DNA from: Caballeronia turbans
GTDB taxonomy: Bacteria > Pseudomonadota > Gammaproteobacteria > Burkholderiales > Burkholderiaceae
Assembly: GCA_001544655.2 (NCBI GenBank)
Contig: FCOD02000026.1
Location: 1-64,000 of the forward strand
Direction: 5' to 3'
Length of the DNA: 64,000 nucleotides
The stretch's first letter is position 1, and every line of letters starts with the position of its first letter. A program made the position numbers and the translations under genes. Below the pieces are notes generated by a model. It worked only from the letters and a program-made list of their open reading frames with translations. It was not told where the DNA came from and ran no database searches. Below are positions 31,708-44,790 of the stretch, piece by piece.

Positions 31708-31724
31708 GTGGTCCCCCCGGCAGG
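31708..31724. repeat. Left attachment-site repeat (attL core)
   Basis: GTGGTCCCCCCGGCAGG is identical to the sequence at 44,715-44,731, where it is the 3' end of tRNA-Arg(CCT). Similarity stops on both sides, as expected for a tRNA-targeted integration core. Confidence 0.85.
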
Positions 31725-31840
31725 CTTCGATTGCCGAAATTCCGGGGAGTTTGTCCAAGCGACGCATGGCGCTGAAACCTAATCGTATCAAGCCTCCGCG
31801 CCCTAGAGCAAGTCACGCATCAAGGCTCCCGTCCCTATGC

Positions 31841-31874
31841 CTGTAGTACCTGCGGTAATTTGTTTGTAGTACCC
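31841..31874. promoter_or_regulatory. Candidate integrase arm-type sites, left end
   Basis: CTGTAGTACC (31,841) and TTGTAGTACCC (31,864) match motifs at the other end of the element just upstream of the integrase (44,635 and 44,647). Short repeats shared by both termini but absent from the core are the usual form of integrase arm-binding sites. Confidence 0.5.
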
Positions 31875-31953
31875 GAATTGCAGGGGCCGCCCTAGCTTCT
31901 GGGCCGTGCCTGCGCCCATTCGATGTGACAGGTAAGACTGTGCGGCCTCTGCA

Positions 31954-32421
31954 CTACCGCACCAAGAAAGTGCCATCAGGATCAGCGGCGAACCCCGCGC
32001 CTTCCAGGTGAATTAGTTGGACCTCGAGCAAGTACAGCGTTACGCCGCCGCCGAAGCCCCTATACGCTTCAGCCTTCCCGCTCACGCGCAAGATTGATCC
32101 GCTGCCTATATCCAGATCCTGAAGCACGTCCGTACCGATCAGGTTGGACCGCGCGTCATACACGTTTGGCCGTGTGTGGCTCCTGAACTTGAGGGTCACT
32201 GTTCCGTCCGCATTTTGAACGCTGGGCGTATGCAGGGTCTCGCCGTTTTGTAGTCCTAGCACGCTAGTCCCTTCCTTCCGGCATGCTTCGAATATCGGCG
32301 CAGCTTCAGCAGCGTTCAGCGTGAGGTCCACCCTGTAAGTACCCTTGGGATCGAACCTGGTATCGGGGGTCGCCAGGCAGACCACGCCTGCTATGCCTTT
32401 CGGCGTCTTGAACTGGATCAT
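31954..32421 (-). CDS. T7 gp2.5-like ssDNA-binding protein
   Basis: A 155-residue protein resembling phage single-stranded DNA-binding proteins of the T7 gp2.5/DUF2815 type. The diagnostic opening is GIAGVVCLATPDTRFDPKG followed by YRVDLTLNAAEAAP, then an OB-like body (VTLKFRSHTRPNVYD, GSGSILRVSGKAEAY). Unlike gp2.5, the C-terminus is not strongly acidic (DPDGTFLVR), which may change protein contacts. It is the leftmost gene of the element and points outward. No polymerase or helicase partner is encoded, so it would protect replication or recombination intermediates made by other machinery. The ribosome site is weak. Confidence 0.72.
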   Translation of the reverse strand: MIQFKTPKGIAGVVCLATPDTRFDPKGTYRVDLTLNAAEAAPIFEACRKEGTSVLGLQNGETLHTPSVQNADGTVTLKFRSHTRPNVYDARSNLIGTDVLQDLDIGSGSILRVSGKAEAYRGFGGGVTLYLLEVQLIHLEGAGFAADPDGTFLVR

Positions 32422-32794
32422 CGGTATCTCAGGACCTCACAGATAGTCGCGGAGAAAGGGAGCGCCTTCTGACCAAAATGGTACAGCGGGGCGCGGCCCT
32501 ACCGGGGGTCATCTCTTCGGAAAATGGCACCCCCTGTTTCTGCGAGATCCCGGGGGTGGAGGGGGTCTTTCCTTTCGAACTTTCCGAATTTCTGGCGGGC
32601 GACTCCCCTGCACAATCTGCAACAACAATAACAACGCGAGAGCCTTTACCGGCTTTTTTGAAGCACTCGAAAATGTGGTATAGGGGGTACCTTGAAAAAC
32701 CGGAACCGAGATAAATTCCGACGAAACACGCGCGGGCCACAACGCGCCGCCACGACAAAACCTCAGATACAAAACGAGAACGAAGGGGAAAGCA
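32422..32794. other. 373-base divergent control region of the element
   Basis: Lies between the outward ssDNA-binding gene and the first rightward gene. It holds ACCCCC ... CGGGGGT inverted repeats around 32,530-32,556 and, at 32,658-32,684, TTGAAG with GGTATAGG 15 bases later, a weak promoter-like pair reading right. An open frame on the minus strand crosses it but lacks a ribosome site and runs into the neighbouring gene. Confidence 0.4.
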
Positions 32795-33208
32795 ATGGGA
32801 GCAGCACGCGGGGGCAGTTTCGAACGGCGTGAGCCGACCTTGGGCCATACGGACCTCGCCACCTTCGCACGGCGCAGCGACGAGAGCACTATCCAGTCTG
32901 ATGCCGTCTATCAGTGGCGACAGGACTTCGAGGAGCGGCGGCAGCTTGAGACCCGCGCAGCGTATGTCAAGCTCGGGCTTTGGCTCCTTGCGTGGTTCGG
33001 CATGGTGTACCTCTGCCAGCAAGGGGCGCAGGCGCTCCAGCCGCGCAACCCGGACAGTTTCATGTACTTCTTCGCGGCGATAGGAACCGCTGCGATGCTG
33101 CTCATCACCTTATGGCGAACGGTATGGCGGCTGATGTGGTGGTTCATCGGACTGTTGATGGTGCTTGCAGCCATCAAGGGCGCGTTCCTGATCGTGTTCA
33201 CCCGTTGA
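32795..33208 (+). CDS. Element-encoded three-helix membrane protein
   Basis: A 137-residue protein of unknown family. The first 55 residues are charged and soluble; then three hydrophobic segments follow: LGLWLLAWFGMVYLCQQG, FMYFFAAIGTAAMLLITLW and LMWWFIGLLMVLAAIKGAFL. A good ribosome site (AAGGGGA) precedes the ATG. First gene of the rightward block of the element. Small polytopic proteins in this position in phages are often superinfection-exclusion or membrane-conversion factors, but nothing here proves that. Confidence 0.65.
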   Translation: MGAARGGSFERREPTLGHTDLATFARRSDESTIQSDAVYQWRQDFEERRQLETRAAYVKLGLWLLAWFGMVYLCQQGAQALQPRNPDSFMYFFAAIGTAAMLLITLWRTVWRLMWWFIGLLMVLAAIKGAFLIVFTR

Positions 33209-33232
33209 GTTGCCCACGGACAGCCCACAATA

Positions 33233-33703
33233 ATGGCCGAAGAACCCCAATACTTGGAAACCTTGCGCAGCGAGCTTTGCCATGCACTTGGCGAGGCCGT
33301 GTGGGCATTTTCTATGATCGAACGTCTCACCTATCAGTACATGAAGGCGTTGTCTTCCGAACCATTGCACGAACTGATGGCGGGCCAAGCCTTCAGTGCG
33401 CGTCTCAGGCTTATCACCCGATTAGTCGACCGGCTCCAAGGACAGGAAGCGGAGAAGGCATACGCCCTCAAGTATCTGAAACGTGCCGAGAAGTTGGCAA
33501 AGACGAGGAACACAGTAGCTCACAATCCTTGGCAGATTTGGGTCGATCTCGACGCTGAGCAATTCAGAAGCGCCATCCGCAGATTCGACGACGACGAGTC
33601 AGGCCTCAGCATAGCCGAAGTGCGCAGCTTTGCGGCGGACGCGCAGGAGGCTGCGTCTGGACTTGAGGTTGCCCTCGGAAATCTCCGATTCCCTGGCCCG
33701 TAG
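33233..33703 (+). CDS. HEPN-like protein
   Basis: A 156-residue all-helical protein. Helices at residues 10-40 (LRSELCHALGEAVWAFSMIE) and 55-90 lead to KLAKTRNTVAHNPW, where R92-x4-H97 is the HEPN RNase signature. Many HEPN proteins are metal-independent RNases in toxin-antitoxin, abortive-infection and defence systems; no nucleotidyltransferase antitoxin is adjacent. It follows the membrane gene by 24 bases on the same strand and could be co-transcribed. The HEPN assignment rests on the helical pattern and the R/H motif; the exact subfamily is not identified. Confidence 0.6.
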   Translation: MAEEPQYLETLRSELCHALGEAVWAFSMIERLTYQYMKALSSEPLHELMAGQAFSARLRLITRLVDRLQGQEAEKAYALKYLKRAEKLAKTRNTVAHNPWQIWVDLDAEQFRSAIRRFDDDESGLSIAEVRSFAADAQEAASGLEVALGNLRFPGP

Positions 33704-33838
33704 GCTGCCGTCCCTGTCTTGGCGATAGCGGCACGACCGGGTGTGAGGAACGGAGAACACACCGCGAACGGCTCAAGTTTTGCAATGCCCTGCCGTTTAC
33801 GAGTCCGTAGCCCCTCAAGCCATCAACCATCGCACAAC

Positions 33839-34111
33839 ATGAAGAAAAATCTCATCATCCTCGCAGCATCCGCACTCGCCGCTTGTGGGGGGCCTCAAGT
33901 GACGTCAATTCAAGGGCCATCAGGCGGCACCGAGTATTTAGTAGATTGCGGTCACCACGGGTTCGATGGAGGCGACTGGGCGCAGTGCTACTCGGAGGCG
34001 GCGAAGGTCTGTCCGACGGGGTATGCGATCCGTGACAAGAACATGGAGGCCGGACCGGTCTTCGCCAATTCAGGTGCGAAACGCACCCTGCTGGTGGCGT
34101 GCAAAGGTTGA
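33839..34111 (+). CDS. Small lipoprotein
   Basis: A 90-residue protein with a lipoprotein signal (KKNLIILAASALAAC, lipobox LAAC, so the mature protein begins at Cys16). The mature part has three further cysteines in the pattern DCGHHGFDGGDWAQCYSEAA then CPTGYAIRD, which recurs in small bacterial lipoproteins of unknown function. It is the first of three tightly linked genes for envelope proteins. Longer in-frame starts would bury the signal peptide. Confidence 0.7.
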   Translation: MKKNLIILAASALAACGGPQVTSIQGPSGGTEYLVDCGHHGFDGGDWAQCYSEAAKVCPTGYAIRDKNMEAGPVFANSGAKRTLLVACKG

Positions 34112-34125
34112 ATGCAGCAACCGAA

Positions 34126-34284
34126 ATGAAAAATTGGTACAAGAGCATTACGCGCGGCCAGAAGATCTTCCTCTACGTGCTGTCGTCAGTGTTGGTACTG
34201 GTCTACGCCGTAGGACTCGTCCCGCTGCTTTTGCTGATCTACCTTGAACTCGGCAACTCGAGCAACTCCAAAGTGACTGAATAG
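34126..34284 (+). CDS. 52-residue single-span membrane protein
   Basis: MKNWYKSITRGQKIFLYVL begins a short basic head, followed by one long hydrophobic helix (about residues 14-42) and a polar tail. It starts 14 bases after the lipoprotein stop and ends one base before the next ATG, which supports it as a real gene despite the missing ribosome site. Function unknown. Confidence 0.55.
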   Translation: MKNWYKSITRGQKIFLYVLSSVLVLVYAVGLVPLLLLIYLELGNSSNSKVTE

Positions 34285-34285
34285 C

Positions 34286-34672
34286 ATGAAGCGCAGCATT
34301 CTCTGGCTGCTGGTGATGTCGACATCCAGCGTGTCCTTTGCGCAGACTACCCCTCTGCTACTCTTCGGCGGTCGTGACCATAATGTCTTCCTTGGATGCT
34401 TGAACTGCTCCCAGTACGACAGCAACTCCGTACAGAATGAGTACGGCTCGCACGGTTCCCCATACTCTTCCGAAAGCATTTTTAACCACTACAGCGACTA
34501 TGGGTCGGCCTATTCGAGCGACAGTCCCTGTAACCACTACGCTGACAACCCACCGGTCATCGTTGACCAGAGCGGCGCGTTCTATGGACGGCTCACGTTG
34601 AATCAATATCATCCGCAAGCTAATAAAAACGAGCAACTCGCGGCATGGCTGGAGCGCGAAGTGTGCGATTAA
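34286..34672 (+). CDS. Secreted repeat protein
   Basis: A 128-residue protein with a signal peptide (KRSILWLLVMSTSSVSFA). The mature part starts with a FLGCLNCSQYDSNSVQNEYG motif and then repeats a short unit: S-x-x-N-x-Y-x-x-Y/H-G-S-x-Y-S (residues about 48-80), ending with PPVIVDQSGAFYG. This belongs to a family of small periplasmic or secreted proteins found across bacteria, function unknown. It is the last gene of the envelope cassette; such genes in prophages are often lysogenic-conversion cargo. Confidence 0.7.
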   Translation: MKRSILWLLVMSTSSVSFAQTTPLLLFGGRDHNVFLGCLNCSQYDSNSVQNEYGSHGSPYSSESIFNHYSDYGSAYSSDSPCNHYADNPPVIVDQSGAFYGRLTLNQYHPQANKNEQLAAWLEREVCD

Positions 34673-34723
34673 AAGGAGCCGTTTCCTTTCCGCTGCTCCC
34701 ATGAAGCGACGTCGCCGACAGCT

Positions 34724-34835
34724 TGTCAAAAGTAGTAAGTCCTGACAGCCCCTGTGGACACCATGCAACACCCCTGTCAAATGTCCTGTTGACGAATTAC
34801 GACGATACTGTCATTATTCGATCCAACATATGACA
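34724..34835. promoter_or_regulatory. res-like resolution site upstream of the resolvase
   Basis: TGTCA/TGACA half-sites occur as inverted pairs. One pair spans 34,724-34,748 (25 bases) and one spans 34,809-34,835 (27 bases, half-sites TGTCATTAT and TGTCATATG). A middle, less regular set lies around 34,754-34,794 (TGTGGACA, TGTCAA ... TTGAC). The half-sites match the TGTC-starting consensus of Tn3/gamma-delta res subsites, and the three-part layout over about 112 bases matches a classical res. Confidence 0.6.
34790..34817 (+). promoter_or_regulatory. Promoter-like sequence for the resolvase gene
   Basis: TTGACG and CATTAT, about 16-17 bases apart and 38 bases upstream of the ATG. The -10 lies inside the last res-like subsite, so the resolvase could repress itself. 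Confidence 0.45.
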
Positions 34836-34854
34836 AGGCCTGACGGGGGCAACC

Positions 34855-35442
34855 ATGGCACGTATCGCTTACTACAGGGTCTCGACAAGAGACCAATCGA
34901 TCGAATCCCAACGAGCCGCAATGGGCGGTGGATTTGACAAGGAATTCTCCGACCAGGGCATTAGTGGGACCGTTCTGGCCATGGACCGCCCTGGCTTCAA
35001 GTCTTGCGCCGACTACCTCCGCGAAGGCGACACCCTCCAGGTTTATGCGGTTGACCGCCTAGGCCGCGACTCCATCGACGTCCAGACCACTGTGCGCGAC
35101 CTCCGCGCTAAGGGCGTGATCGTTGACGTCCACGGCCTTGGTCCGATCGTCGGAGACGCTGGCGAGCTAATCCTGGCCCTTCTCGCCCAAGTCGCGCAGA
35201 TGGAGCGGAACCGGATCGCTTCCCGCACCGATGCCGGTCGCGAGCTTGCCAAGCAATCCCTTGCAGCCACTGGGAAGACCCACCGAGGCAAGGCGAGTCT
35301 TGGTCGACCGGTTCAGCATGATGCTGCCGCAATCGCCGCGTGGTCCTGGGAGAACGGCAGCATAACCAAGGCTGCGGAACATTTCGGCGTGAGCGAAGCG
35401 ACCGTTAGCAGAGCACGCAGGGCTTTCCCCAAGGCCGCGTAA
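34855..35442 (+). CDS. Serine recombinase, resolvase/invertase type
   Basis: A 195-residue small serine recombinase. The nucleophile is Ser10 in AYYRVSTRDQS; the conserved DRLGRDS and the long helix LALLAQVAQMERNRIASRTDAG (catalytic Arg residues and dimer helix) are intact. The C-terminus from about residue 150 is a helix-turn-helix (NGSITKAAEHFGVSEATVSRA). Length and layout are those of Tn3-type resolvases, and a res-like site lies directly upstream. In a 13-kb element this enzyme would resolve multimers or cointegrates rather than integrate, since a tyrosine integrase is also present. Confidence 0.9.
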   Translation: MARIAYYRVSTRDQSIESQRAAMGGGFDKEFSDQGISGTVLAMDRPGFKSCADYLREGDTLQVYAVDRLGRDSIDVQTTVRDLRAKGVIVDVHGLGPIVGDAGELILALLAQVAQMERNRIASRTDAGRELAKQSLAATGKTHRGKASLGRPVQHDAAAIAAWSWENGSITKAAEHFGVSEATVSRARRAFPKAA

Positions 35443-35571
35443 GGCCAGCAAGGGACCGCTAAGGCCTGGCGGATCCTAAACAAACACTTCAGAAAAACGG
35501 CAGACAGCCGATAGCCAACCCAACACGCGCCGCCACGCCTCCGAGCGGTCGCCATACGAGGAAGCAGGGAA

Positions 35572-35727
35572 ATGCAAAACCAAGTACCGAAGGAGACCAG
35601 CAACAACGCGGTTGTGTACGTGATCGACCAGGGCAGCGGATGGGAGCAGAATGAAGACGTGGTCTGGGTCATCGACGCGGGCAACGAGGCCGAATGGGAG
35701 AACCAGGTGCCGTACATCCTAAGCTGA
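35572..35727 (+). CDS. 51-residue acidic protein, element
   Basis: An ATG with AGGGAA upstream opens a 51-codon frame. The peptide contains two similar stretches, VVYVIDQGSGWEQN and VVWVIDAGNEAEWEN, which argues for selection on the protein. No family recognised. It stands between the resolvase and the long repeat-bearing gap. Confidence 0.5.
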   Translation: MQNQVPKETSNNAVVYVIDQGSGWEQNEDVVWVIDAGNEAEWENQVPYILS

Positions 35728-36304
35728 CAGGCACCGAAGCACCCAGCCCTGCGCCGTCAACCATTAGGACTAGAAATAAATGGTTGCCGTGGTATCCGCG
35801 CGACACTTTTCGACGAGCGCAGGGAGAATCTTGACTTTCTTTGGGGTCGCTTGGGGCAAGGCCGCCGAATTAGTGCGCACGTAAGAAAGGGAGGCCGTGA
35901 ATTGGTCGACACTTAAAGAGAGACGGCCTCGCGATTTACCCACCCCTATAGAAGCAACACCCACGGATTCGGATTAGTCGACACCCCTAGAGAAAGCAGG
36001 GCAATCGGATTTAGGCCGTACTATAGAAAGCACACCGCCTCCCAGGGCATCGCATAAGTCGACACGTACGAAAGAAAGGCCGCTGTACAACACTACACCG
36101 CATAGCCCCACGCATCACCGCACCACCCTTCCGCAACACCGTTTTTGCCGTCCCCGGCCGCATCAGGCCACCAACCCCTTAGACGCACCTCGCCAGCCCG
36201 TTCTAGGCCCTCATAGAGACCTTGGCGGCAGCAGTCGCGCGCCCGCAACCAGCCCGCAACGCATCACCTTATTTTTGCTGAAACTGACACGTTAAGGAAT
36301 CCAA
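35728..36304. other. 577-base non-coding gap of the element
   Basis: No frame on either strand looks coding. The first 350 bases hold the promoter-like repeats described separately. The rest is C-rich and ends with an AAGGAAT ribosome site for the zinc-finger gene. A possible further repeat-like copy (GACACGT...AAGGAA) lies at about 36,286-36,299. Confidence 0.5.
35869..36078 (+). repeat. Six tandem T7-type promoter-like repeats
   Basis: Degenerate 23-base copies start at 35,869, 35,901, 35,934, 35,973, 36,009 and 36,054 (spacings 32-45). The best-preserved head is ATTAGTCGACAC (copy 4; copies 2 and 6 differ by one base or so) and the tail is purine-rich after TA (CTATAGAAAGC in copy 5, CCTATAGAAGC in copy 3, CCTAGAGAAAG in copy 4). 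The CGAC core, eight bases before a purine-rich start, reproduces the layout of T7 promoters (CGAC, then ACTATAGGG). All copies read right, toward the zinc-finger, HNH and virion-like genes. Iterons are the main alternative. Confidence 0.6.
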
Positions 36305-36595
36305 ATGAACACACCACAAACCACCAAGGAACAGCGATCCGCGTCACCCGCCTTCATCGTCCGCCCCTACGCTAAACGAGGGACCAAGACCGCCGCCCGT
36401 GAAGCGGCCCGCAAGGCCGGACAGAAGACGTTCCTATTCACCTGCAACGCCCACGGTCTCACCGTCTTTGGGACCGCAGGGGGCGGCCATTGCCGCGAAT
36501 GCACCGCAGCCCGGAAACGCGCCGCCTACGAGCGCCAGAAGCGAGCCGAGATGGAGGCCGCCTTGACCACGAACCAAGGAGGCGGTCTGAAATGA
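36305..36595 (+). CDS. Zinc-finger protein preceding the HNH gene
   Basis: A 96-residue basic protein. Residues 47-66 hold C47-x2-H50-x12-C63-x2-C66, a CCHC-type zinc ribbon, inside TAAREAARKAGQKTFLFTC and HGLTVFG. The same module, with near-identical flanks, forms the N-terminus of the HNH endonuclease encoded next, so the two are paralogous there. The last four bases overlap the HNH start (ATGA), giving translational coupling. Likely a nucleic-acid-binding partner; the function is not established. AAGGA lies upstream of the ATG. Confidence 0.65.
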   Translation: MNTPQTTKEQRSASPAFIVRPYAKRGTKTAAREAARKAGQKTFLFTCNAHGLTVFGTAGGGHCRECTAARKRAAYERQKRAEMEAALTTNQGGGLK

Positions 36596-37422
36596 CGACA
36601 AACGCACCTCTCAGCAAGTCCGCCATGGCCCGCGAGGCCCGAAAGCGCGGCGAACGATTCTTCCAAGCGCCCTGCGTGCGCCATGGAGAGCAGCCGCACT
36701 ATGCCAGCACCCGTGCATGCTCGGTGTGCCAAGCGGACCGCAACGCGCCCAAGAACAGTGCTGCAGCCGAGCGATACCGCGATGATACGGAATACCGAGA
36801 GCATGTACGCGACACCGGCAACAAGGCGCGAAGGAAGCGCCGCGAAAACCCGGACTACCGAGAGGCCGAACGAGCATATGAGCGAGAGCGAGAAGCCAAT
36901 CGAAAGACCGTCGATCCGGCATACGTGCGACACCTACGCGCAAAAGCGGTGAATGGGGGCGCGGTCCTTCGAATGCGCAAGGGAAAAGAAGCCCGTCCCG
37001 ATACCGCGATGCCGAGCAAGGAGACGCTACGCGAGTGCTACGAGTTCGCGCTACGCGCCCCCGAGGGCTGTGAACTCGACCATGGCTGCCCTTTGCGCGG
37101 CGTCCACCCCGTGACCGGAAAAGATACGGTTTGTGGTCTGCATGTTCCCTACAACCTTGAGCCAATGACGAAGAGGTCAAACACCATCAAGCGGCATTTC
37201 TTCGACCCCGAGAACCCCCTCGAATTCCAGAAGCCGTACAACTCCTTTCCAGGCGGTCAGTTCCACGGAGACCACGCGGAGGACGAGTTCATGCGGTACA
37301 CCACGCCGACCACGCTCCACATCATGACCATGGCGGAATTCAAGGAGGCCATTGTGGAAGGTGGTAACGCCGACATGCACGAGTTCCTACTGCGACTTGC
37401 CGACGATGCCCCCGAACTCTAA
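36592..37422 (+). CDS. Phage-type HNH endonuclease with N-terminal zinc finger
   Basis: A 276-residue protein. C28-x2-H31-x11-C43-x2-C46 is an N-terminal zinc finger; residues 60-115 are a charged helical linker; residues 160-200 are an HNH fold of the phage kind: ELDHGCPLRG (D163, H164), then CGLHVPYNLEPMT (H184, N188) and N197/K200. This CGLHVP-NL pattern is typical of HNH proteins in podoviruses, where they act in DNA processing or as homing-like nucleases. A very strong AAGGAGG ribosome site lies inside the upstream gene. The C-terminal 75 residues match nothing I know. Confidence 0.75.
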   Translation: MTTNAPLSKSAMAREARKRGERFFQAPCVRHGEQPHYASTRACSVCQADRNAPKNSAAAERYRDDTEYREHVRDTGNKARRKRRENPDYREAERAYEREREANRKTVDPAYVRHLRAKAVNGGAVLRMRKGKEARPDTAMPSKETLRECYEFALRAPEGCELDHGCPLRGVHPVTGKDTVCGLHVPYNLEPMTKRSNTIKRHFFDPENPLEFQKPYNSFPGGQFHGDHAEDEFMRYTTPTTLHIMTMAEFKEAIVEGGNADMHEFLLRLADDAPEL

Positions 37423-37552
37423 TAGAGCCTTCCGCGACTCCCTCGCAGTACCCAAAGTACTCGAAGTACCCGCAGCACCTCGCGAGCCTTCCCCGGCCCG
37501 CAACTTCCCCAGGGGTCTCCCGACCCTTCCCGCAGTTCCTTTCCCTACCATC

Positions 37553-38761
37553 ATGATCAAAACAATCTTCAACATTTTCTTCCCGGCGCTCCGACTCGCC
37601 AAGGGCCTCAACGTAGCGGCAGCCGCAGTCGGTGCGGGCATCGGCGCAGTCGGCAGCGCCATCTCTGCAAGCAACGCCGCAGACGCCCAGAAGTCTGCAG
37701 CCGAGGCCGCTAACAGCCCTTGGTCCAAAGCGCAGCCCTACATCTCCGGGGAGTTCCAGGGTGCCCAGGATGCCCTCCACAACGGCCTCGGAATGGGGAC
37801 GTATTCGGGCGAACGGGTTGCCGGTCTGAACCCCTACCAGACCCAGGGCGCCGACCAGACCGCAGCCTATGCAGATGGAAACGGCGTCAACACGGCCAAC
37901 CACTTCTATAGCACCGGTATGGGCCTCACAGGCGCTGGCGCTGGCTTTGGCAGCAATGCCCAGGGTCTGTTAGCGCAGGCGCAGCAGGACCCGACCCAGG
38001 GGTTTCTAAGCTACGCAAACGGCCTGGCTAATAGCAGCATGGCGGATAACCTAATTACTGCGGCGAACCGCGACGCCTCTAGGAGCCTGAACGAGTTGCA
38101 GCTTCCATCCCTGGCCGTCTCTGCGGCAGGCAACGGGAACATGGACTCGACCCGTACCGGTGTGACGCAAGCCATCCTGCAACGCAATGCGTCCGAGCAG
38201 ATGGCAGACACCGCAGCGCAGATCCGTGGGCAGCTTTTCAACACCGGCCTACAGACCGCCCAGTCCCAGTACAACGCAAACGCGGATCGCGCACTGAACG
38301 CCAATGGCCAGCTTGGCCAAGCCTTTGGCCTCGGTTCTTCAGCACTGCTAAACGGTCAACAAGCGAACGGCAACAATTTCGACCAAATGACCGCAGCGGG
38401 GGGCCTCTATCAGACCCAGAACCAGAACCTAGACAACGCGGCCATGGCTCAGTTTAACGAGCAGCAGTCCACGCCGCTCAACCTGTACGGCCAATACATG
38501 AACGTGATTAACGGCAAGTGGGGCGGTCAGCCGGTTAGCTCCGTGGGACCCTCTGTTGCCGGAAATTTCCTTCAAGGTGCCGCTGGCGGGGGCCTTACGG
38601 GCGCAGGACTCGCTAGCAAGCTCGGGGGCTACGGAGACAGCGGAGCTACGAGCTACGGCAACACCTTCACGATGCCAGGCGGCACGGATTACGAATCGGC
38701 GGCGAGTTCGGCAGTCCAGATGCCTGCGGGCCTCAGCGCCTTCGGCTACGGCTACGAATAA
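37553..38761 (+). CDS. Phage virion/DNA-ejection-like protein
   Basis: About 402 residues, low complexity and rich in Ala, Gly, Asn and Gln. A glycine-zipper hydrophobic stretch (LNVAAAAVGAGIGAVGSAIS) near the N-terminus is followed by SPWSKAQPYISGEFQGAQ and YSGERVAGLNPYQTQGAD. That order recurs in internal-virion/ejection and tail-associated proteins of podoviruses. The rest is Q/N-rich helical repeats. This suggests a protein packaged in a virion and delivered with DNA. Start is uncertain: ATG 37,553 begins the natural N-terminus, but in-frame ATGs at 37,406 and 37,352 exist and none has a good ribosome site. Confidence 0.65.
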   Translation: MIKTIFNIFFPALRLAKGLNVAAAAVGAGIGAVGSAISASNAADAQKSAAEAANSPWSKAQPYISGEFQGAQDALHNGLGMGTYSGERVAGLNPYQTQGADQTAAYADGNGVNTANHFYSTGMGLTGAGAGFGSNAQGLLAQAQQDPTQGFLSYANGLANSSMADNLITAANRDASRSLNELQLPSLAVSAAGNGNMDSTRTGVTQAILQRNASEQMADTAAQIRGQLFNTGLQTAQSQYNANADRALNANGQLGQAFGLGSSALLNGQQANGNNFDQMTAAGGLYQTQNQNLDNAAMAQFNEQQSTPLNLYGQYMNVINGKWGGQPVSSVGPSVAGNFLQGAAGGGLTGAGLASKLGGYGDSGATSYGNTFTMPGGTDYESAASSAVQMPAGLSAFGYGYE

Positions 38762-38900
38762 GGCGACGCTCCCACGGCTAACCCGCTTTCCGGTACGGCC
38801 TTCCGCCCCTCCACCAAACCCATGAACACCAGGACGCGGCCCCATGCAGGCGCGAGGGATACCCGCGTCCAACCTTCACTAACTTGAGAATCCAACAGCA

Positions 38901-40256
38901 ATGAACAATGACGGTTATTCGTTTGACATGCCTCCCGGCATTGATCCGCGTGACGACGGATCGCACAGCCTCCCCGCGTACCTTGGACAGGCCCTGCAGT
39001 TCTACGGCACCGACAAATCGACCCCGCTTCCGAGCTATCTAAGCTACCCGCTCAACAATCAACCCGGTCAGTCCATGTTCGGCGGTGGCGCTCCGCTGCA
39101 GACCCCGATGCAGCAGGCCATGGCCCCGCAGACGCCCGACACCGCTATCTCCCAAGCCATGGCCCCGCAACGGGCCGCGCCGACCGCGATCAGCAACGCG
39201 ATGGCCCCAGCGCCCCTTACGCCGATCCAAGCGGCCTTTCAGAACCAAGCGACCAACCCCGACTTGGCGAAAGCTAACGCATTGATCGCCGCAGGGTCTG
39301 CGCTAATGGGCGGCAAGGACCTGCAGCAGGGCTTGGCCAACGCGGGCACTGCTTTCAGCAACACCTTCGACCAGACCCTGAACCAACAACGAGACCTGAA
39401 CACGCCTCGAGTCGCCCCGCTGGGCCAGGATGGCGCGTTTTCTATGGTACAGATGCCAGGTCAGCAGCCGCAGGTTGTGTCGAACGACCAGGTCCAGAAC
39501 TACGTCTTGGGCAAGGCACGGGCGCAGAAGGCATTCGAACTGCAGAACGACATTGCCAAGCAGACCATGGAGCAACAACGCGCTGCGGCCAAGCTCGACC
39601 AGACCAACAGTCAGCAGGCTGTGCCGGTCCTGACCAATCTCCAATCATCGCAGGCCGGTCTCAACGCGGCGCAGGCTGTCACAGACGCCCTCAAGAGCGA
39701 TTCTGACCGCTCCCTGGCGCTCAAGGCCTATTCCGCGCTCAAGCCGACGCTTCAGCGCCTCGCGGCTGCTTCGGGCGTCCCAGCGATGGCGCAAGCCGCC
39801 TCGGACTACAACACCCTGAATAATGCCCGCATCGACGGCGCGAAGATGGAAGTGTCCGGTTTGAATGGCTCGCTGAGCAACGACGAGTGGACCCGTGCTG
39901 TTGGAGCAGTCCCGCATCCCTCGGACTCCCCTGAGGTCTGGGACAGCTACTACGAACGTGCGAACCCGCTGCTTACGAGCCGCGTGGGTTTCTATTCGGA
40001 CGTCGTCAAGCGTGGCCAGGAAGCAGCGAACCGCGCTCTCAACCCGTACGGGCCTAACGACCGTCCTAACCTCGGTGCGCCCCAGGTGCCCCAAGCGGTC
40101 CAAGCACATCGAGCGCCCCAAGGATCCCAAGCCGCTCAATCGTCGGGTTCCGGATCGTATCAACCCGTGACCGTCGCGAGCTTCGCGGATGCAAACCGTC
40201 TGCCGTCTGGGACTGTCTTCCAAGCGCCTGATGGGTCGCTTAGGAAGAAGCCGTAA
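38901..40256 (+). CDS. Phage structural-like protein, Q/A-rich
   Basis: A 451-residue protein. The N-terminal 110 residues contain three near-repeats of an AMAP unit (MQQAMAPQ, ISQAMAPQ, ISNAMAPAP). The middle is long alpha-helical, Q/A-rich sequence (residues 200-290), and the C-terminus ends LPSGTVFQAPDGSLRKKP, a tail seen in phage structural proteins. It follows the ejection-like protein by 139 bases on the same strand and shares its composition, so both are likely parts of one internal-virion or ejection set. No protease or transglycosylase motif is visible. Confidence 0.6.
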   Translation: MNNDGYSFDMPPGIDPRDDGSHSLPAYLGQALQFYGTDKSTPLPSYLSYPLNNQPGQSMFGGGAPLQTPMQQAMAPQTPDTAISQAMAPQRAAPTAISNAMAPAPLTPIQAAFQNQATNPDLAKANALIAAGSALMGGKDLQQGLANAGTAFSNTFDQTLNQQRDLNTPRVAPLGQDGAFSMVQMPGQQPQVVSNDQVQNYVLGKARAQKAFELQNDIAKQTMEQQRAAAKLDQTNSQQAVPVLTNLQSSQAGLNAAQAVTDALKSDSDRSLALKAYSALKPTLQRLAAASGVPAMAQAASDYNTLNNARIDGAKMEVSGLNGSLSNDEWTRAVGAVPHPSDSPEVWDSYYERANPLLTSRVGFYSDVVKRGQEAANRALNPYGPNDRPNLGAPQVPQAVQAHRAPQGSQAAQSSGSGSYQPVTVASFADANRLPSGTVFQAPDGSLRKKP

Positions 40257-40601
40257 CCCCAAGACCAGTAGGGTTCTAGGGTATGGCTTGGCCAGAGGGA
40301 GACCAAAAAAGGATCTCAGCGCCCTAGATCATGATCGATATAGGAGACCAATTATTGACCATCTCCGAAGAGATCTATGGCGCTGCTCGGATTCTTTTCT
40401 TTGATTGATTAATCGGTCTTTCCTCTTAGTGGTCCCCTCCCCAAGCTGCACCTTAGGTCCCTTGGGTCCTCTTCCTCTGGTCTGGAAGAGGTTCGCCTAT
40501 CGCCCTTGTTATTTATATAGGCGAAATCGCTGAGACCCTTTCCCCATAAGGGTTTGCGGTTTCGAATTCGGATGTAAAACATCAAAAAATGAACCTGACG
40601 A
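40257..40601. other. 345-base AT-richer gap in the element
   Basis: Non-coding on both strands. It contains the hairpin cluster described separately, a TTATTTATATAGG stretch at 40,508-40,521 and a palindromic GATTAATC near 40,407. Confidence 0.5.
40317..40583. other. Cluster of five inverted repeats
   Basis: I: 40,317-40,330 pairs with 40,372-40,385 (CAGCGCC-C-TAGATC against GATCTA-T-GGCGCTG, 13 of 14 pairs) and encloses GGAGA/TCTCC at 40,343 and 40,362. II: CCTCTTCC/GGAAGAGG, 40,468-40,491, perfect 8 bp. III: TTCGCCTAT/ATAGGCGAA, 40,492-40,525, perfect 9 bp and directly abutting II. IV: ACCCTT/AAGGGT, 40,535-40,553. V: GATGT/ACATC, 40,571-40,583. Only I has a T-rich tract after it (TTCTTTTCTTT), so terminator function could explain I but not the set. 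A structured RNA or replication origin is possible. Confidence 0.7.
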
Positions 40602-41204
40602 ATGAAGATCGACAATGAAGAAATCAGGGCTCTGGACTCCGTGGAAACCCCACAGAAGGAGCGCTATGAAGCCTTCGGGGGGACCTACAAAGTGGTACCG
40701 AAGGGACGCCTTCGTGCGGCAGGGTGGCGGGTGACGCGAAGCATGCGGCCCGTAATTTATCGCGCCCCCGAAACGTGGTTAGACAACGAGACCGGGGAGA
40801 TCCTGACTACGAGCGAGGCGAAGAAGCGCGGGATCAGGTTGCCGCTGGCCCGCTCCGCGTCCGAAAAGATGCTAGACCTGTGCGAGTGCGTGACATCTTG
40901 CCCAGCCAGCGAACGCCCTTTCGTGTCGTTCCTCCTGAAGATGCGCAATCATCGCGGCGGTCTTTTGGCTCCCTTGGAATCCCTGATTGACCAATGGATT
41001 GATTGCGAATGTCCCGGTATTCGGTCGACAAACAAGGCACGTAAGCGCAAACAACTTCGCGGCATCATTGACCGACGCCGGTTGATGACAAACGATACGA
41101 CTATGGCGAGAAACCTCATGTTGCTTAATCCAAACATGACGAAGCAGGACGTCATCGAGGAAGGAGCAAAGCGGTACAACCTGCGCGCTGCGCTGAGGCC
41201 TTGA
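40602..41204 (+). CDS. Unknown 200-residue element protein
   Basis: No family recognised. Residues 22-60 (YEAFGGTYKVVPKGRLRAAG) look like a small beta-rich module, followed by WLDNETGEILTTSEAKKRG. Residues 85-110 contain C-E-C and a further Cys, and 130-165 are strongly basic (NKARKRKQLRGIIDRRRLM), which suggests nucleic-acid binding. It begins directly after the hairpin cluster and could act on it, in replication or regulation; that is inference from position only. The start ATG lacks a clear ribosome site. Confidence 0.6.
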   Translation: MKIDNEEIRALDSVETPQKERYEAFGGTYKVVPKGRLRAAGWRVTRSMRPVIYRAPETWLDNETGEILTTSEAKKRGIRLPLARSASEKMLDLCECVTSCPASERPFVSFLLKMRNHRGGLLAPLESLIDQWIDCECPGIRSTNKARKRKQLRGIIDRRRLMTNDTTMARNLMLLNPNMTKQDVIEEGAKRYNLRAALRP

Positions 41205-41527
41205 ACTGCACGAATCCTTGTTCGGCGTCGCCTGTTCGGCATCGCCTGTTCGGCGGCCGCCAGGACTCCCCGCAGCCCCTGCGAAGTGGAAGCAGGAAAC
41301 AGACGACGCGGTCGAGCAACACATGCGTGAACTCAAGCCGCACGGGTCGATCACCCGCTTAAGCTTCGGAGGGGCGACGACCTGGCGAGGCTCGCTGCGT
41401 ACCAGCCCGCGATGGCGGCGCGACTACCGGCACTTGCCAATGCGGATCCTAAGCGGCCGCACGTTCGTACCGCCTCCTATCGAAGGCCCGACGCGGCTAC
41501 AATGTGATCCCTGTCGGAGAAAACAAA
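41205..41527. other. 323-base gap before the DUF262 gene
   Basis: Holds 14-base tandem repeats and, at 41,498-41,503, TACAAT, a -10-like hexamer 24 bases before the DUF262 start, with no good -35. An open frame on the plus strand runs into the DUF262 gene out of frame and is not convincing. Confidence 0.4.
41221..41261. repeat. Short 14-bp tandem repeat
   Basis: TTCGGCGTCGCCTG, TTCGGCATCGCCTG and a partial third TTCGGCGGCCGCC follow each other directly. Each contains a small GGC/GCC dyad. Confidence 0.6.
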
Positions 41528-42634
41528 ATGTCGAACGAACTTTTCCAGTCGGACGAGGAAGTGGAAGACCTTGACGAGGTCAACGAGGTCATTCCAACCG
41601 CATACACCATCACCTCCTACGGCGCGGACTACCCGGTCGACGGCCTCGTGAAACGTCTCGGGCAAGGCGATATTGTCGTCCCGCTCTTCAACATGCCCCC
41701 GGGGCACGACCAACCCCTTGTTGGCTTCCAGCGCGAGTTCGTTTGGACGCGCCCGCAGTGCGATCGCTTTGTCGAATCCCTACTGCTTGGACTTCCTGTG
41801 CCGGGAATCTTCTTGGTGAAAGAGTCCAGCGGGAGGCTTCTTGTGTTGGACGGTCAGCAACGTCTGAGAACGCTTCAGTATTTTTATGGCGGGCTTATCC
41901 AAGGTAAGGAATTCTCCCTGGATAACGTACAGGATAAGTGGCGCGGACGGACATATAAAACGCTCGAGGTAGATGACAGGCGACGGCTCGATGACAGCAT
42001 CATTCACGCCACTATCGTGAGACAGGACGAGCCCTCCGATGACATGAGCAGCATCTACATGGTTTTTGAACGTCTGAACTCCGGAGGGACGTTTCTGCAG
42101 CCCCAGGAGATTCGGGTGGCGCTCTATCATGGAAAGTTAGCGACGCTACTAAGTTCGCTCAATGAAGGCGAGTCGTGGAGAGCGCTCTACGGAAAGAAAA
42201 GCGCACGCCTCAAGGATTTGGAACTGATTCTCCGTTTTTTCGCGCTGTTCTATCAGGCAAAGTCCTACAAACGCCCGATGAAAGAATTTTTGAATCGTTA
42301 CATGGCGTCCAACATGAACCTTCAGGCTGTAGGGGAAGACGCGCTTCGCTCGCTCTTTGAGACTACTGCGGCGGCCATTCGCCAGTTTATCGGAGTGCGT
42401 GCGTTCCGCCTGAAAGCTGCGATAAACGCGGCTGTGGCCGATTCGGTAATGGTTGGCGTTGCGCGTCGATTGGCTACCGGAGCGGTGGCGCATCCGGAAG
42501 ATTTTAAGACCGCGTACGATACTTTGCTGCAAGACTCCGAGTTCTTGAAGGCGAGCGGTCGATCGACTGCAGACGAGGAATTTGTTCGGCTGCGGCTTGA
42601 GCGCGCTACCAACGCTTTCGCGAAGGTCAGATGA
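41528..42634 (+). CDS. DUF262 (ParB/sulfiredoxin-fold) defence-type protein
   Basis: A 368-residue protein with the DUF262 nuclease/NTPase fold. FQREFVWTRPQCDRFVESLLLGLPVP is followed by the signature DGQQRLRTL (residues 108-115), then IVRQDEPSDDMSSIYMVFERLNSGGTFL. The C-terminal half is helical. DUF262 domains occur in GmrSD-type type IV restriction enzymes, where they are joined to DUF1524; that HNH domain is absent here. Its partner is an overlapping HEPN gene. The GGAGA ribosome site favours ATG 41,528 over a GTG at 41,504. Placed beside the integrase, a common site for anti-phage cargo. Confidence 0.85.
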   Translation: MSNELFQSDEEVEDLDEVNEVIPTAYTITSYGADYPVDGLVKRLGQGDIVVPLFNMPPGHDQPLVGFQREFVWTRPQCDRFVESLLLGLPVPGIFLVKESSGRLLVLDGQQRLRTLQYFYGGLIQGKEFSLDNVQDKWRGRTYKTLEVDDRRRLDDSIIHATIVRQDEPSDDMSSIYMVFERLNSGGTFLQPQEIRVALYHGKLATLLSSLNEGESWRALYGKKSARLKDLELILRFFALFYQAKSYKRPMKEFLNRYMASNMNLQAVGEDALRSLFETTAAAIRQFIGVRAFRLKAAINAAVADSVMVGVARRLATGAVAHPEDFKTAYDTLLQDSEFLKASGRSTADEEFVRLRLERATNAFAKVR

Positions 42635-43125
42635 GCGGGCGCAGAGAGGTACACCGCCTCAGGAGTCGCATGGATGCGACTTTTTCACGCGCCCCCGATC
42701 CGACGTCTGATCCTGAATTTCAGGCCGACTTCGCCAAATACTTGTGCGTACTGGTTTCGGGGTACCTCGAAAGCGCCCTTTGCGCGTTGCTTCTCGGCTT
42801 TGCGCAGGCCCGGAGTTCTCGTGAGGTGGCGTCGTTCGTGGAGCGCCAACTCGGCCCCTGGACCAATCCGAAGGCTGAAAAGATCATCGACTTGTTCGGC
42901 TCCTTCAATCAAGACTGGCGCGACAACCTGGCCGCCTACCTTGTCGATCAGCGTAAAGACAGCGTTAATAGCTTGGTTGCTCTCCGGCACATCATTGCGC
43001 ACGGCGAATCGGTCGGCACAAGCCTGTCGCAGATTAAATCGCACTACAAGGTTGCCAACGAAGTTATCGATCATGTAGCCGATTTAGTGGACCCTCCGAC
43101 CGGGGCCGGGGCACGTCGAGCATAG
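42631..43125 (+). CDS. HEPN-domain protein (RiboL-PSP-like), DUF262 partner
   Basis: A 164-residue helical protein whose start overlaps the DUF262 stop (ATGA), so synthesis is coupled. KYLCVLVSGYLESALCALLL opens the domain. VALRHIIAHGESVGTSLSQI carries the HEPN RNase motif R119-x4-H124, and VADLVDP closes it; this is the RiboL-PSP/MAE-type HEPN layout. Such proteins pair with DUF262 proteins in predicted defence operons. A likely mechanism is RNA cleavage released or controlled by the DUF262 partner during phage infection, which is inference. An internal ATG at 42,670 is an alternative start. Confidence 0.78.
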   Translation: MSGRREVHRLRSRMDATFSRAPDPTSDPEFQADFAKYLCVLVSGYLESALCALLLGFAQARSSREVASFVERQLGPWTNPKAEKIIDLFGSFNQDWRDNLAAYLVDQRKDSVNSLVALRHIIAHGESVGTSLSQIKSHYKVANEVIDHVADLVDPPTGAGARRA

Positions 43126-43187
43126 GTCAAGCAAATGGCTCGGGGGGATGCGGAACGTTACAGCAGCCGTCCGTAGGATCGACGGAG

Positions 43188-44624
43188 CTACGCATGCACC
43201 AGCGCGACCGCATTGGCCAGCCAATCGGCCAACTGCGCCAGGGGGTACCCTTCCCCATAGTTCGCGCCCATGCCTGGGGTCCTGTGGCCCGTTAGCTGAT
43301 CCCGAGCGGAGTCCGGACAGCCGACCGCACGCAGCAAGTCCTCCATGCCATGGCGCAGCGAATGGTTACCGAGCTTGGTCCCGATGAGGCCCTCGCGAGT
43401 CCGGACCCACTGCACCAAAGAGGCACTGACGGAGTCCGCCTTGCACTCACTGTCGGTGGTGTACCTAGGGAAAAGGAAGGCCGAATGGTCCGCGAGCCGC
43501 AGCGCGGCCTTAGCCGCCTCCAGGGCCTTGGGCGTCAGCGGAACCTTCCGCGCAGATCCGAGGCCTGTTTTTAGTGACCGCCAGGGATGCTCCTTCAGGT
43601 CTAGATATGGCACGGCGACGCGAAGCTGCACGTCCGCAACCGCAAGGCCGACAATTTCCCCGAGCCGCGCTCCGGTCTCCGCGACCAAGGTCAGGATGCA
43701 GCGCAACTGATCCGGCCCGTGCTTCGCACTCCAAGCGTCCAGGGCGCGATGCAAATACCGGTACTGGTCGACGGTGAACGTCTCGCGCTTGACTGCATCC
43801 TTACCGGCCTTGGGGATCTCAACCTGGGCGAATACGTTTGGGACGCTGAGTTCGTTCTCGCGAATCGCACGGGCGAATGCGGCCCTTACGTTGGTAAGGT
43901 ATCGGCTGACGGTGGTGGTACTCACAGCCTTACCGTCCTTGCTATGCTTCCCGGCGAGAAGCCATTTCACGAATTCGTTCACGTCCAGACGCTTCACGCT
44001 CTGCAAATCCCGGTCTTTCCCTGGGACCGGCGTGCGACTCTCGAGAAAGGCGAACAGATAACCGAACACCATACGGGCATCCTTCTCTGTCTCGGGTCGC
44101 GCCGCCACGTACTGCTCAAGGCAGTCCTCTAGCGTGAACCTTACCCGCCGCTGGACCATCTGGAAGGCCGCTGCTTGGACGGGCGTCAAATACCTGTCTA
44201 ACTGCCGCCCTTCCGTAATGTCCTCGCTCTCCACTACAGCGCGGGGAAGCTGGTGCTCTAAGAAGGTGTGGAAATGGTCGACCGCCTCAGGCGTGTTCTC
44301 AGGGGCCGAAGGGTCTACGCCATTCCGGAGCAGTAACTCATGGGCCTCGCGGAGGACGCCTTCCCGCGTCGGGTTTCTCAATTGCGCCCAATCCCTGTCG
44401 GTCTGTTCGACCAACGCTGGGATTAGCTTGGCGGCCACCCGGGGATCCGTGGTCTGAAGAGAGACCACGTAGTGCACCTTACCCGCGTATTTGGAGCCAA
44501 CGGGCAGGACCGGCTTAATGTCGTCCGGGACCCGACGCTTGAAAAATAGCAACGAGCCTTTCGACTTCTGCCAGGCGTATTTGAGCTTTACGGACACGAT
44601 GGGAGACAGGTGCAATAAGGCCAT
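43188..44624 (-). CDS. Tyrosine-recombinase integrase
   Basis: A 478-residue (from ATG 44,624) phage-type integrase. The catalytic domain shows the first Arg in VAETGARLGEIVGL, the HSLRHGMEDLL box (H-x-x-R), GHRTPGMG and the nucleophile Tyr in ANYGEGYPL. The N-terminal 200 residues are the helical arm and core-binding regions. It sits directly beside tRNA-Arg with the att core on the tRNA 3' end. An upstream TTG start at 44,696 would translate the arm-type repeats as YYNRYYKRY, so I prefer the internal ATG, although no strong ribosome site is seen. Confidence 0.9.
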   Translation of the reverse strand: MALLHLSPIVSVKLKYAWQKSKGSLLFFKRRVPDDIKPVLPVGSKYAGKVHYVVSLQTTDPRVAAKLIPALVEQTDRDWAQLRNPTREGVLREAHELLLRNGVDPSAPENTPEAVDHFHTFLEHQLPRAVVESEDITEGRQLDRYLTPVQAAAFQMVQRRVRFTLEDCLEQYVAARPETEKDARMVFGYLFAFLESRTPVPGKDRDLQSVKRLDVNEFVKWLLAGKHSKDGKAVSTTTVSRYLTNVRAAFARAIRENELSVPNVFAQVEIPKAGKDAVKRETFTVDQYRYLHRALDAWSAKHGPDQLRCILTLVAETGARLGEIVGLAVADVQLRVAVPYLDLKEHPWRSLKTGLGSARKVPLTPKALEAAKAALRLADHSAFLFPRYTTDSECKADSVSASLVQWVRTREGLIGTKLGNHSLRHGMEDLLRAVGCPDSARDQLTGHRTPGMGANYGEGYPLAQLADWLANAVALVHA

Positions 44625-44634
44625 GGAGTAACGC

Positions 44635-44657
44635 TTGTAGTAGCGATTGTAGTACCC
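44635..44657. promoter_or_regulatory. Candidate integrase arm-type sites, right end
   Basis: TTGTAGTAGC (44,635) and TTGTAGTACCC (44,647), 12 bases apart, lie just upstream of the preferred integrase start. They match the pair at 31,841-31,874 near the left end. Confidence 0.5.
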
Positions 44658-44714
44658 ATGGGTCACCTTGAGAAGCCCGCCACGTAAGCCTGACAAGGCT
44701 CTGAGGGGTAGCGG

Positions 44715-44731
44715 GTGGTCCCCCCGGCAGG
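44715..44731. repeat. Right attachment-site repeat (attR core)
   Basis: Identical 17 bases to 31,708-31,724, and here they form the 3' end of the tRNA-Arg gene. Confidence 0.88.
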
Positions 44732-44790
44732 AATCGAACCTGCATCTAGCGCTTAGGAGGCACTCGTTCTATCCATTGAACTACGGGGAG
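44716..44790 (-). tRNA. tRNA-Arg (anticodon CCT)
   Basis: Full cloverleaf on the minus strand. Acceptor CTCCCCG pairs with CGGGGGG (one G-T wobble), D-stem GTTC/GAAC, anticodon arm AGTGC-CTCCTAA-GCGCT with CCT anticodon, four-base variable region, T-arm GCAGG-TTCGATT-CCTGC, discriminator A and encoded CCA. The element is inserted at its 3' end and the repeat rebuilds the gene. Confidence 0.95.

Follow-up and report, generated by a model that had tools for sequence, protein, structure and literature searches.

We analysed a 64-kb stretch of Caballeronia turbans DNA (contig FCOD02000026.1, positions 1 to 64,000; hereafter the window), which contains a 13.0-kb integrated element at positions 31708–44737, both attachment (att) copies included. 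The element is real and precisely inserted at a tRNA-Arg(CCT) gene on the minus strand (44716–44790). Specifically, a direct repeat, exact over 17 bp and alike at 21 of 23 bases, links the left att copy (31708–31730) with the right att copy (44715–44737); the right copy lies at the 3′ end of the tRNA-Arg gene, and the left copy marks where the flank stops in the empty sites of relatives. In a survey of flanks at 11 relative loci, both flanks lie close together in nine. They abut with a 23-bp overlap in L233, L234 and L237 and with a 22-bp overlap in L238; L235 is occupied by the sister element L071 described below, and L239 matched one flank only. The GC content per kb is 0.54–0.63 within the element and 0.60–0.68 outside it.

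Profile scans of the element covered 17 open reading frames (ORFs) against Pfam and 10 ORFs against PHROGs. An earlier note on this DNA had described a 13-kb tRNA-Arg element with a 17-bp att repeat, a tyrosine integrase, a gp2.5-like single-stranded DNA-binding protein (SSB), a resolvase and a defence-like gene pair, all of which are borne out by the repeat, the tRNA gene, the empty sites and the profile matches. The integrase p17 (43188–44696, minus strand, start uncertain) matches Pfam Phage_integrase (1.8e-11) and DUF6538 (1.2e-9) and was followed up by an integrase search of the genus. The SSB p2 (31954–32421, minus strand) matches phrog_112 (4.8e-16), with a Pfam T7-SSB match under the cut-off, and is 41–42% identical to phage SSBs whose genes adjoin an RNA polymerase (RNAP) gene. 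The serine resolvase p8 (34855–35442, plus strand) matches Pfam Resolvase (2.6e-27). Terminase, portal, capsid, tail and polymerase genes, which the note had found missing, have no profile match among the ORFs scanned; a sub-threshold match of the resolvase to a PHROGs terminase small-subunit profile (0.13) is attributed to its helix-turn-helix. The phage-type HNH nuclease of the note, the HNH/endonuclease-VII-like p11 (36592–37422, plus strand), is present and has relatives in sister elements, but its resemblance to phage proteins is weak in the profile scans (phrog_1035 endonuclease VII, 0.00078; phrog_26577, 1.9e-6). As for its two virion-like proteins, p12 (37553–38761, plus strand; frame open from 37352, start at 37553 presumed) matches the DNA ejection protein profile phrog_4287 (1.4e-22), whereas p13 (38901–40256, plus strand) matches no phage profile in Pfam or PHROGs and is a presumed ejection protein as the neighbour of p12 in full phages.

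Relatives of p12 and p13 occur in 24 IMG/VR contigs, including the C. temeraria contig, with identities of 66–78% for p12 and of 43–68% for p13 where p13 is mostly covered (short end pieces reach 89%). The relatives adjoin podovirus structural genes in 24 of the 24 contigs, and TerL or portal lies within the fetched stretch in 15, the stretch stopping earlier in the other nine. The phage order is tail fibres, a 569-amino-acid virion protein, two small genes, p12, p13, a protein of about 1030 amino acids with lytic-tail and internal-virion profile matches, a 209-amino-acid gene, TerL, portal and scaffold. A search of deposited phages gave one weak match to p12 and none to p13. A p12 scan of genome contigs returned only C. 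temeraria, and a p12 search of 398 genomes of the family returned two, the genome of the window and C. temeraria. The C. temeraria prophage encodes, beside its RNAP, an SSB with 42% identity to p2, and it also has an integrase with 46% identity to p17. A T7-type RNAP is present in six of the seven loci of one set of p12–p13 loci, the miss being the window's own genome, and in four of the seven records of a second set, which includes several fragments; one record is common to both sets. The C. temeraria RNAP matches the solved T7 RNAP, and its best identity among the deposited phages listed is 33.0%. In the best-supported reading, the likely helpers of the element are temperate podoviruses with an integrase and a T7-type RNAP. 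Beside this, the temperate podovirus group of L014 (897–3401) has a T7-type RNAP about 33% identical to the best of the deposited phages listed, and the promoter type of these podoviruses differs from one phage to the next.

Upstream of the RNAP gene, each phage carries at least two near-identical copies of a sequence of about 22 bases, one copy of which is often inverted towards the RNAP gene. The copies in each phage were defined by their own repetition. Eight types are found among the phages; the median difference between copies of the same phage is 2 mismatches (29 pairs), and that between types is 7.5 bases. Like the T7 promoter, the phage sequences place a 17-base element before a purine-rich start. 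The RNAPs, too, vary with the type at the residues that align with the T7 specificity loop; L025 and L038, whose RNAPs differ little at this loop, have bases −17 to −5 in common. We infer that the phage repeats are promoters, because of their repetition, their T7-like layout and their covariation with the RNAP loop.

Between the resolvase gene p8 and the small gene p10 (36305–36595, plus strand), the element carries an array of six promoter-like sites at 35868–36074, all on the plus strand, 32–44 bp apart, upstream of p10–p11 and pointing to them. The sites are unlike each other (median difference 11 of 22 bases, 15 pairs), and each is nearest to a different phage type, four of the six matching a type at 2–4 mismatches. 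Site A (35868–35889) lies 2 of 22 mismatches from the L027 type, site B (35900–35921) 4 mismatches from the L029 type, and site F (36053–36074) 2 mismatches from the L038 type, with none in the 13-base core. Site E (36009–36030) is nearest to L018/L019 and then to C. temeraria, at 3 mismatches to both and at 2 to a variant L019 copy. Site D (35972–35993) is 5 mismatches from its nearest type, that of L022, and site C (35934–35955), recognised by eye, is nearest to the C. temeraria type at 7 mismatches, or 6 when variant copies are allowed. Searched on both strands at up to 5 mismatches from any phage type, the window yields five sites, all of them in the array; shuffles of the array region contain a mean of 0.003 and none of 2000 reaches five, in a test that is not fully blind because the array had been seen by eye first. 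The 50.9 kb of flanking host DNA has no site at 5 mismatches and two at 6. Chance as the source of the array is rejected on the basis of the 2000 shuffles. The central result is that one element carries sites of several apparent promoter specificities and no polymerase.

Across 58 genomes of the genus, the search with the integrase led to two sister elements, L070 and L071, each likewise inserted at a tRNA-Arg gene of this kind, with 8.2 and 9.9 kb, respectively, between their att repeats; in L070, one base differs in the tRNA copy. Both keep the integrase, the resolvase, the HNH gene and the target site in the order of the window. Identities in L070 and L071 are 87% and 80% for the integrase, 96% and 96% for the resolvase, 46% and 90% for the HNH protein, 55% and 84% for p10 and 79% and 62.5% for p3, and L071 additionally has p14, p4 and p9 in common with the window. 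Neither has a match to p2, p12 or p13, nor to the phage TerL, portal, scaffold or RNAP. We propose a family with the core resolvase, putative array and HNH nuclease, of which p10 is a further core gene; the same core occupies the same kind of site in L070 and L071. The HNH profile is found in 12 of the 398 genomes of the family, nine in Caballeronia and three in another genus. A search of deposited phages and plasmids gave no match to p11, and scans of viral contigs for p11 and p14 gave pattern matches and no relatives.

L070 has an array of its own, with five sites within 5 mismatches of phage types (shuffle mean 0.0015; none of 2000 reaches it); by eye there are seven, with a pairwise median of 10 mismatches, and this array differs from that of the window. 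The core of site C is one mismatch from that of site 3 of L070, and no sampled phage is close to this common core. The arrays of the window, L070 and L071 do not align, and since their flanking genes do, the arrays seem to turn over fast. We also compared each of 11 resolvase–HNH regions with 200 of its own shuffles for internal repeats at no more than 8 mismatches, leaving out L097 and L099 (contig end, weak match) and L072, which stops short of the region. Six of the 11 regions look array-like: none of the 200 shuffles reaches the window, L073, L095 or L098, and three reach L070 and L093. The array is a new observation and, together with the element family, a stronger finding than that of the earlier note, which had missed both the array and a shared non-coding block at 32594–32692.

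This block, identified by sequence matches and assigned to the minus strand, is common to the element and the helper-type phages over about 70 bp, with 76–91% identity in stretches of 42–79 bp. It lies upstream of the tail-fibre operon in the phages and is present in 18 of the 24 phage contigs, the other six beginning downstream of it. Matches to it also occur in L070 and L071, with a weaker one in L098 (77% over 77 bp to phage L029). The fold of the phage block does not stand out against shuffled sequences (z −1.48; 17 of 200 fold equally well). The block may act as a packaging site or as an origin.

The ejection-type genes show apparent constraint. The ratio of nonsynonymous to synonymous substitution rates (dN/dS) between p12 and the phages is 0.11–0.18 in nine of 14 relatives and 0.30–0.37 in the other five, probably because earlier open-frame starts misalign; for p13 it is 0.19–0.41 (13 relatives) and for p2 0.30–0.35. 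Phage–phage values are 0.21 for p12 (median, 41 pairs), 0.44 for p13 (median, 62 pairs) and 0.27 for p2 (4 pairs); dS is near saturation, and values taken pairwise cannot separate out the satellite branch. The apparent constraint suggests that p12 and p13 are probably in use, perhaps in replacing or outcompeting the ejection proteins of a helper.

Taken from sequence alone, a satellite dependent on helper podoviruses with a T7-type polymerase is the best-supported reading because sister elements share the core and the array resembles helper promoters. The earlier note had likewise proposed a podovirus satellite with a T7-like helper; the proposal is partly supported and stands for the most part, with helpers that are likely temperate and carry an integrase. 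We consider it likely, though well short of certain, that the element is a phage satellite of a family that we did not find described, that the polymerase of the incoming helper, whichever it is, transcribes it, and that its promoter set defines its helper range. In the proposed mechanism, the satellite, integrated at tRNA-Arg(CCT), would await a temperate podovirus with its own T7-type RNAP. Upon helper entry or induction, the helper polymerase would read the matching promoter in the array, and transcription would proceed rightward through p10, p11 and, in the window member, p12 and p13. The array would hold several unlike promoters because the phages have different promoters. The integrase would excise the satellite, and the helper would package its DNA, perhaps through the shared block, and transfer it. 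For the nuclease p11, possible roles are an attack on the helper genome or the processing of DNA for packaging; p12–p13 may replace the ejection proteins of the helper. By a slight margin of belief, we favour a general device in which satellites of phages with T7-type polymerases set their helper range by an exchangeable array of promoters that are captured from helpers or mimic theirs, with one key for each helper lineage. If this is true, one could read from the array which phages each satellite lineage has exploited, unsequenced ones included; helper range could be read from sequence and tested for each promoter and polymerase, natural polymerase–promoter pairs of differing specificity would be on offer, and undiscovered helper phages would be predicted.

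Several results weigh against this reading. The array was spotted by eye before the phage types were defined, the start pattern with which the phage repeats were sought drew on the array, and site C is a weak addition made by eye. The host genome shows no T7-type RNAP and no helper prophage RNAP. The single site of L071 within 5 mismatches is reached by six of 2000 shuffles, and L073, L074 and L075 have no site within 5 mismatches of the known phage types, so that sites matched to phage types occur only in the window, L070 and one site of L071. In the internal-repeat test, five of the 11 regions are not array-like (reached by 167 of 200 shuffles in L071, 63 in L074, 18 in L075, 47 in L094 and 200 in L096); at 9 mismatches L095 also fails (185), and L075 is borderline (9). 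L070 has a weak match to the 209-amino-acid phage gene (38.9% over 36 amino acids), and the searches turned up no phage that matches the arrays of the second genus. Because several sister regions have no recognisable array, we have slightly lowered our estimate of the satellite reading.

A different account takes the element for a defence island with a phage-triggered switch, in which the polymerases of invaders turn on the nuclease p11 and the element is never packaged. The arrays lie directly upstream of the nuclease gene, a GmrSD-N/HEPN pair is also present, and no packaging gene is found among the ORFs scanned; yet the element is equipped with an integrase and att sites, empty sites exist and other species harbour sister elements, and a pure defence island has no need of apparently constrained ejection-type genes or of a non-coding block shared with phages. 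We regard this account as unlikely on its own, and the defence and satellite readings can both be true together. The placement of the SSB, p12–p13 and the integrase as in the C. temeraria prophage, which weighs against a satellite since a deletion derivative would be expected to look alike, is what a remnant of a temperate podovirus prophage would show, with most genes lost and the promoter region left over. However, the sister elements have the core without p2, p12 and p13, the ORFs are open, p12 and p13 do not look relaxed, and a phage has one promoter type where the array has several, so that the array is not the expected leftover of one deleted prophage. Such a remnant is therefore improbable, and a simple prophage deletion is rejected as the main explanation in view of the sister elements and the mixed-specificity array. 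The repeated sites might instead bind a satellite or host protein, for example at a replication origin or as resolvase sites, as their 32–44 bp spacing in non-coding DNA beside the resolvase gene could suggest. The sites of one protein should be alike, and these differ at half their bases and yet mostly match phage types closely, which makes this the least credible account and a very improbable one.

The earlier note is corrected in part. Its element-borne ejection-type proteins exist, but they do not characterise the family: p2, p12 and p13 have no match in any of the 13 sister loci searched, some of them fragments, and this candidate trait is rejected. Conserved copies, which it had proposed to look for, were found as sister elements with the core but without these three genes. 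It had held that close relatives inside full prophages would count against a satellite; the p12–p13 order and the SSB and integrase placement do occur there, but the resolvase, p10, the HNH gene and p14 have no convincing match in the two fullest phages. Since the helper-like genes p2, p12–p13 and the integrase have the same order or placement in full prophages, some shared ancestry or exchange with helpers is likely.

The element has general features of satellites, namely an integrase with att sites and an incomplete virion gene set. PICI, cf-PICI, P4-like and PLE satellites carry a tyrosine integrase, cargo and defence genes, as does the window element; unlike them, it has no capsid, packaging, psu/sid-like or primase profile in the ORFs scanned. 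The P4 gene set is psu, sid, delta and alpha, and no such profile is found among the 17 ORFs of the window element. PLE is an element of Vibrio cholerae and its phage ICP1, and the host genus of the window element is Caballeronia. We know of no PICI, cf-PICI, P4-like or PLE satellite with a collection of unlike phage-polymerase promoters, and among the open-licence PubMed Central (PMC) literature matches listed, none describes satellites with promoters for phage polymerases. The array resembles phages with T7-type RNAPs in placing a 17-base element before a purine-rich start; such phages repeat one promoter type, whereas the satellite collects several without a polymerase. The available extract of one source (PMC10803314) gives sizes of 10, 9.5, 14 and 18 kb for PICI, cf-PICI, P4-like and PLE satellites, similar to the 13.0, 8.2 and 9.9 kb of the window element, L070 and L071, and states that cf-PICI encode their own capsid, for which no profile is found among the window ORFs scanned. 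The same extract (PMC10803314) describes PICMI as minimalist satellites of Vibrionaceae without capsid-remodelling or packaging genes, dependent on helper virions, with defence genes, a site next to fis and induction via AlpA. The window element is alike in being small and integrated, in lacking capsid-remodelling and packaging genes, in its presumed helper dependence and in its defence genes. It differs in its tRNA-Arg site, in its array, none being mentioned for PICMI in that extract (PMC10803314), in having no AlpA profile in its 17 ORFs, which divergent forms could escape, and in its presumed helpers, temperate phages with a T7-type RNAP. The window element thus looks like a satellite but fails the testable features of PICMI, cf-PICI and P4.

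Several sister regions show further array-like repeats. By eye, L098 (8380–8960), from a second genus of Burkholderiaceae, has about ten tandem, mutually unlike promoter-like sites, one of which is followed by a bacterial-type terminator sequence. A stricter pattern scan for the L098 promoter type gave two chance-looking matches in records without an RNAP match, a check in which no control gave a signal. An RNAP is found in 10 of the 398 genomes of the family, and against the arrays these give chance-level matches only, among those listed. L093 (9140–9350) has, by eye, four promoter-like sites that look related to those of L098, with a terminator-like stem after the first. In L095 (9350–10000), a TTATCTGATG-type box is followed by a T7-promoter-like stretch, and the unit is repeated about four times. 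L073 (5340–5800) has an array of sites ending in TATAGA that matches none of the eight phage types.

Among the other genes of the element, p3 (32795–33208, plus strand; shared with L070 and L071) and p4 (33233–33703, plus strand; 76% in L071) have no assigned function, nor does p14 (40602–41204, plus strand), which recurs in L071, L093 and L096 at 77%, 33% and 50%. The defence-like cargo at 41504–43125 has no match in L070 or L071 and consists of the GmrSD-N protein p15 (41504–42634, plus strand; Pfam GmrSD_N 2.5e-25; PADLOC NsnA and PD-T4-2_A) and its HEPN partner p16 (42631–43125, plus strand; Pfam RiboL-PSP-HEPN 1.8e-14, no PADLOC match). L070 (2009–3103) and L073 (2202–3254) have ParB-like genes where the window has p14–p16. 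Near its far end, L070 (7451–8371) encodes a 306-amino-acid protein with a full-length match to phrog_20794, a phage family of unassigned function.

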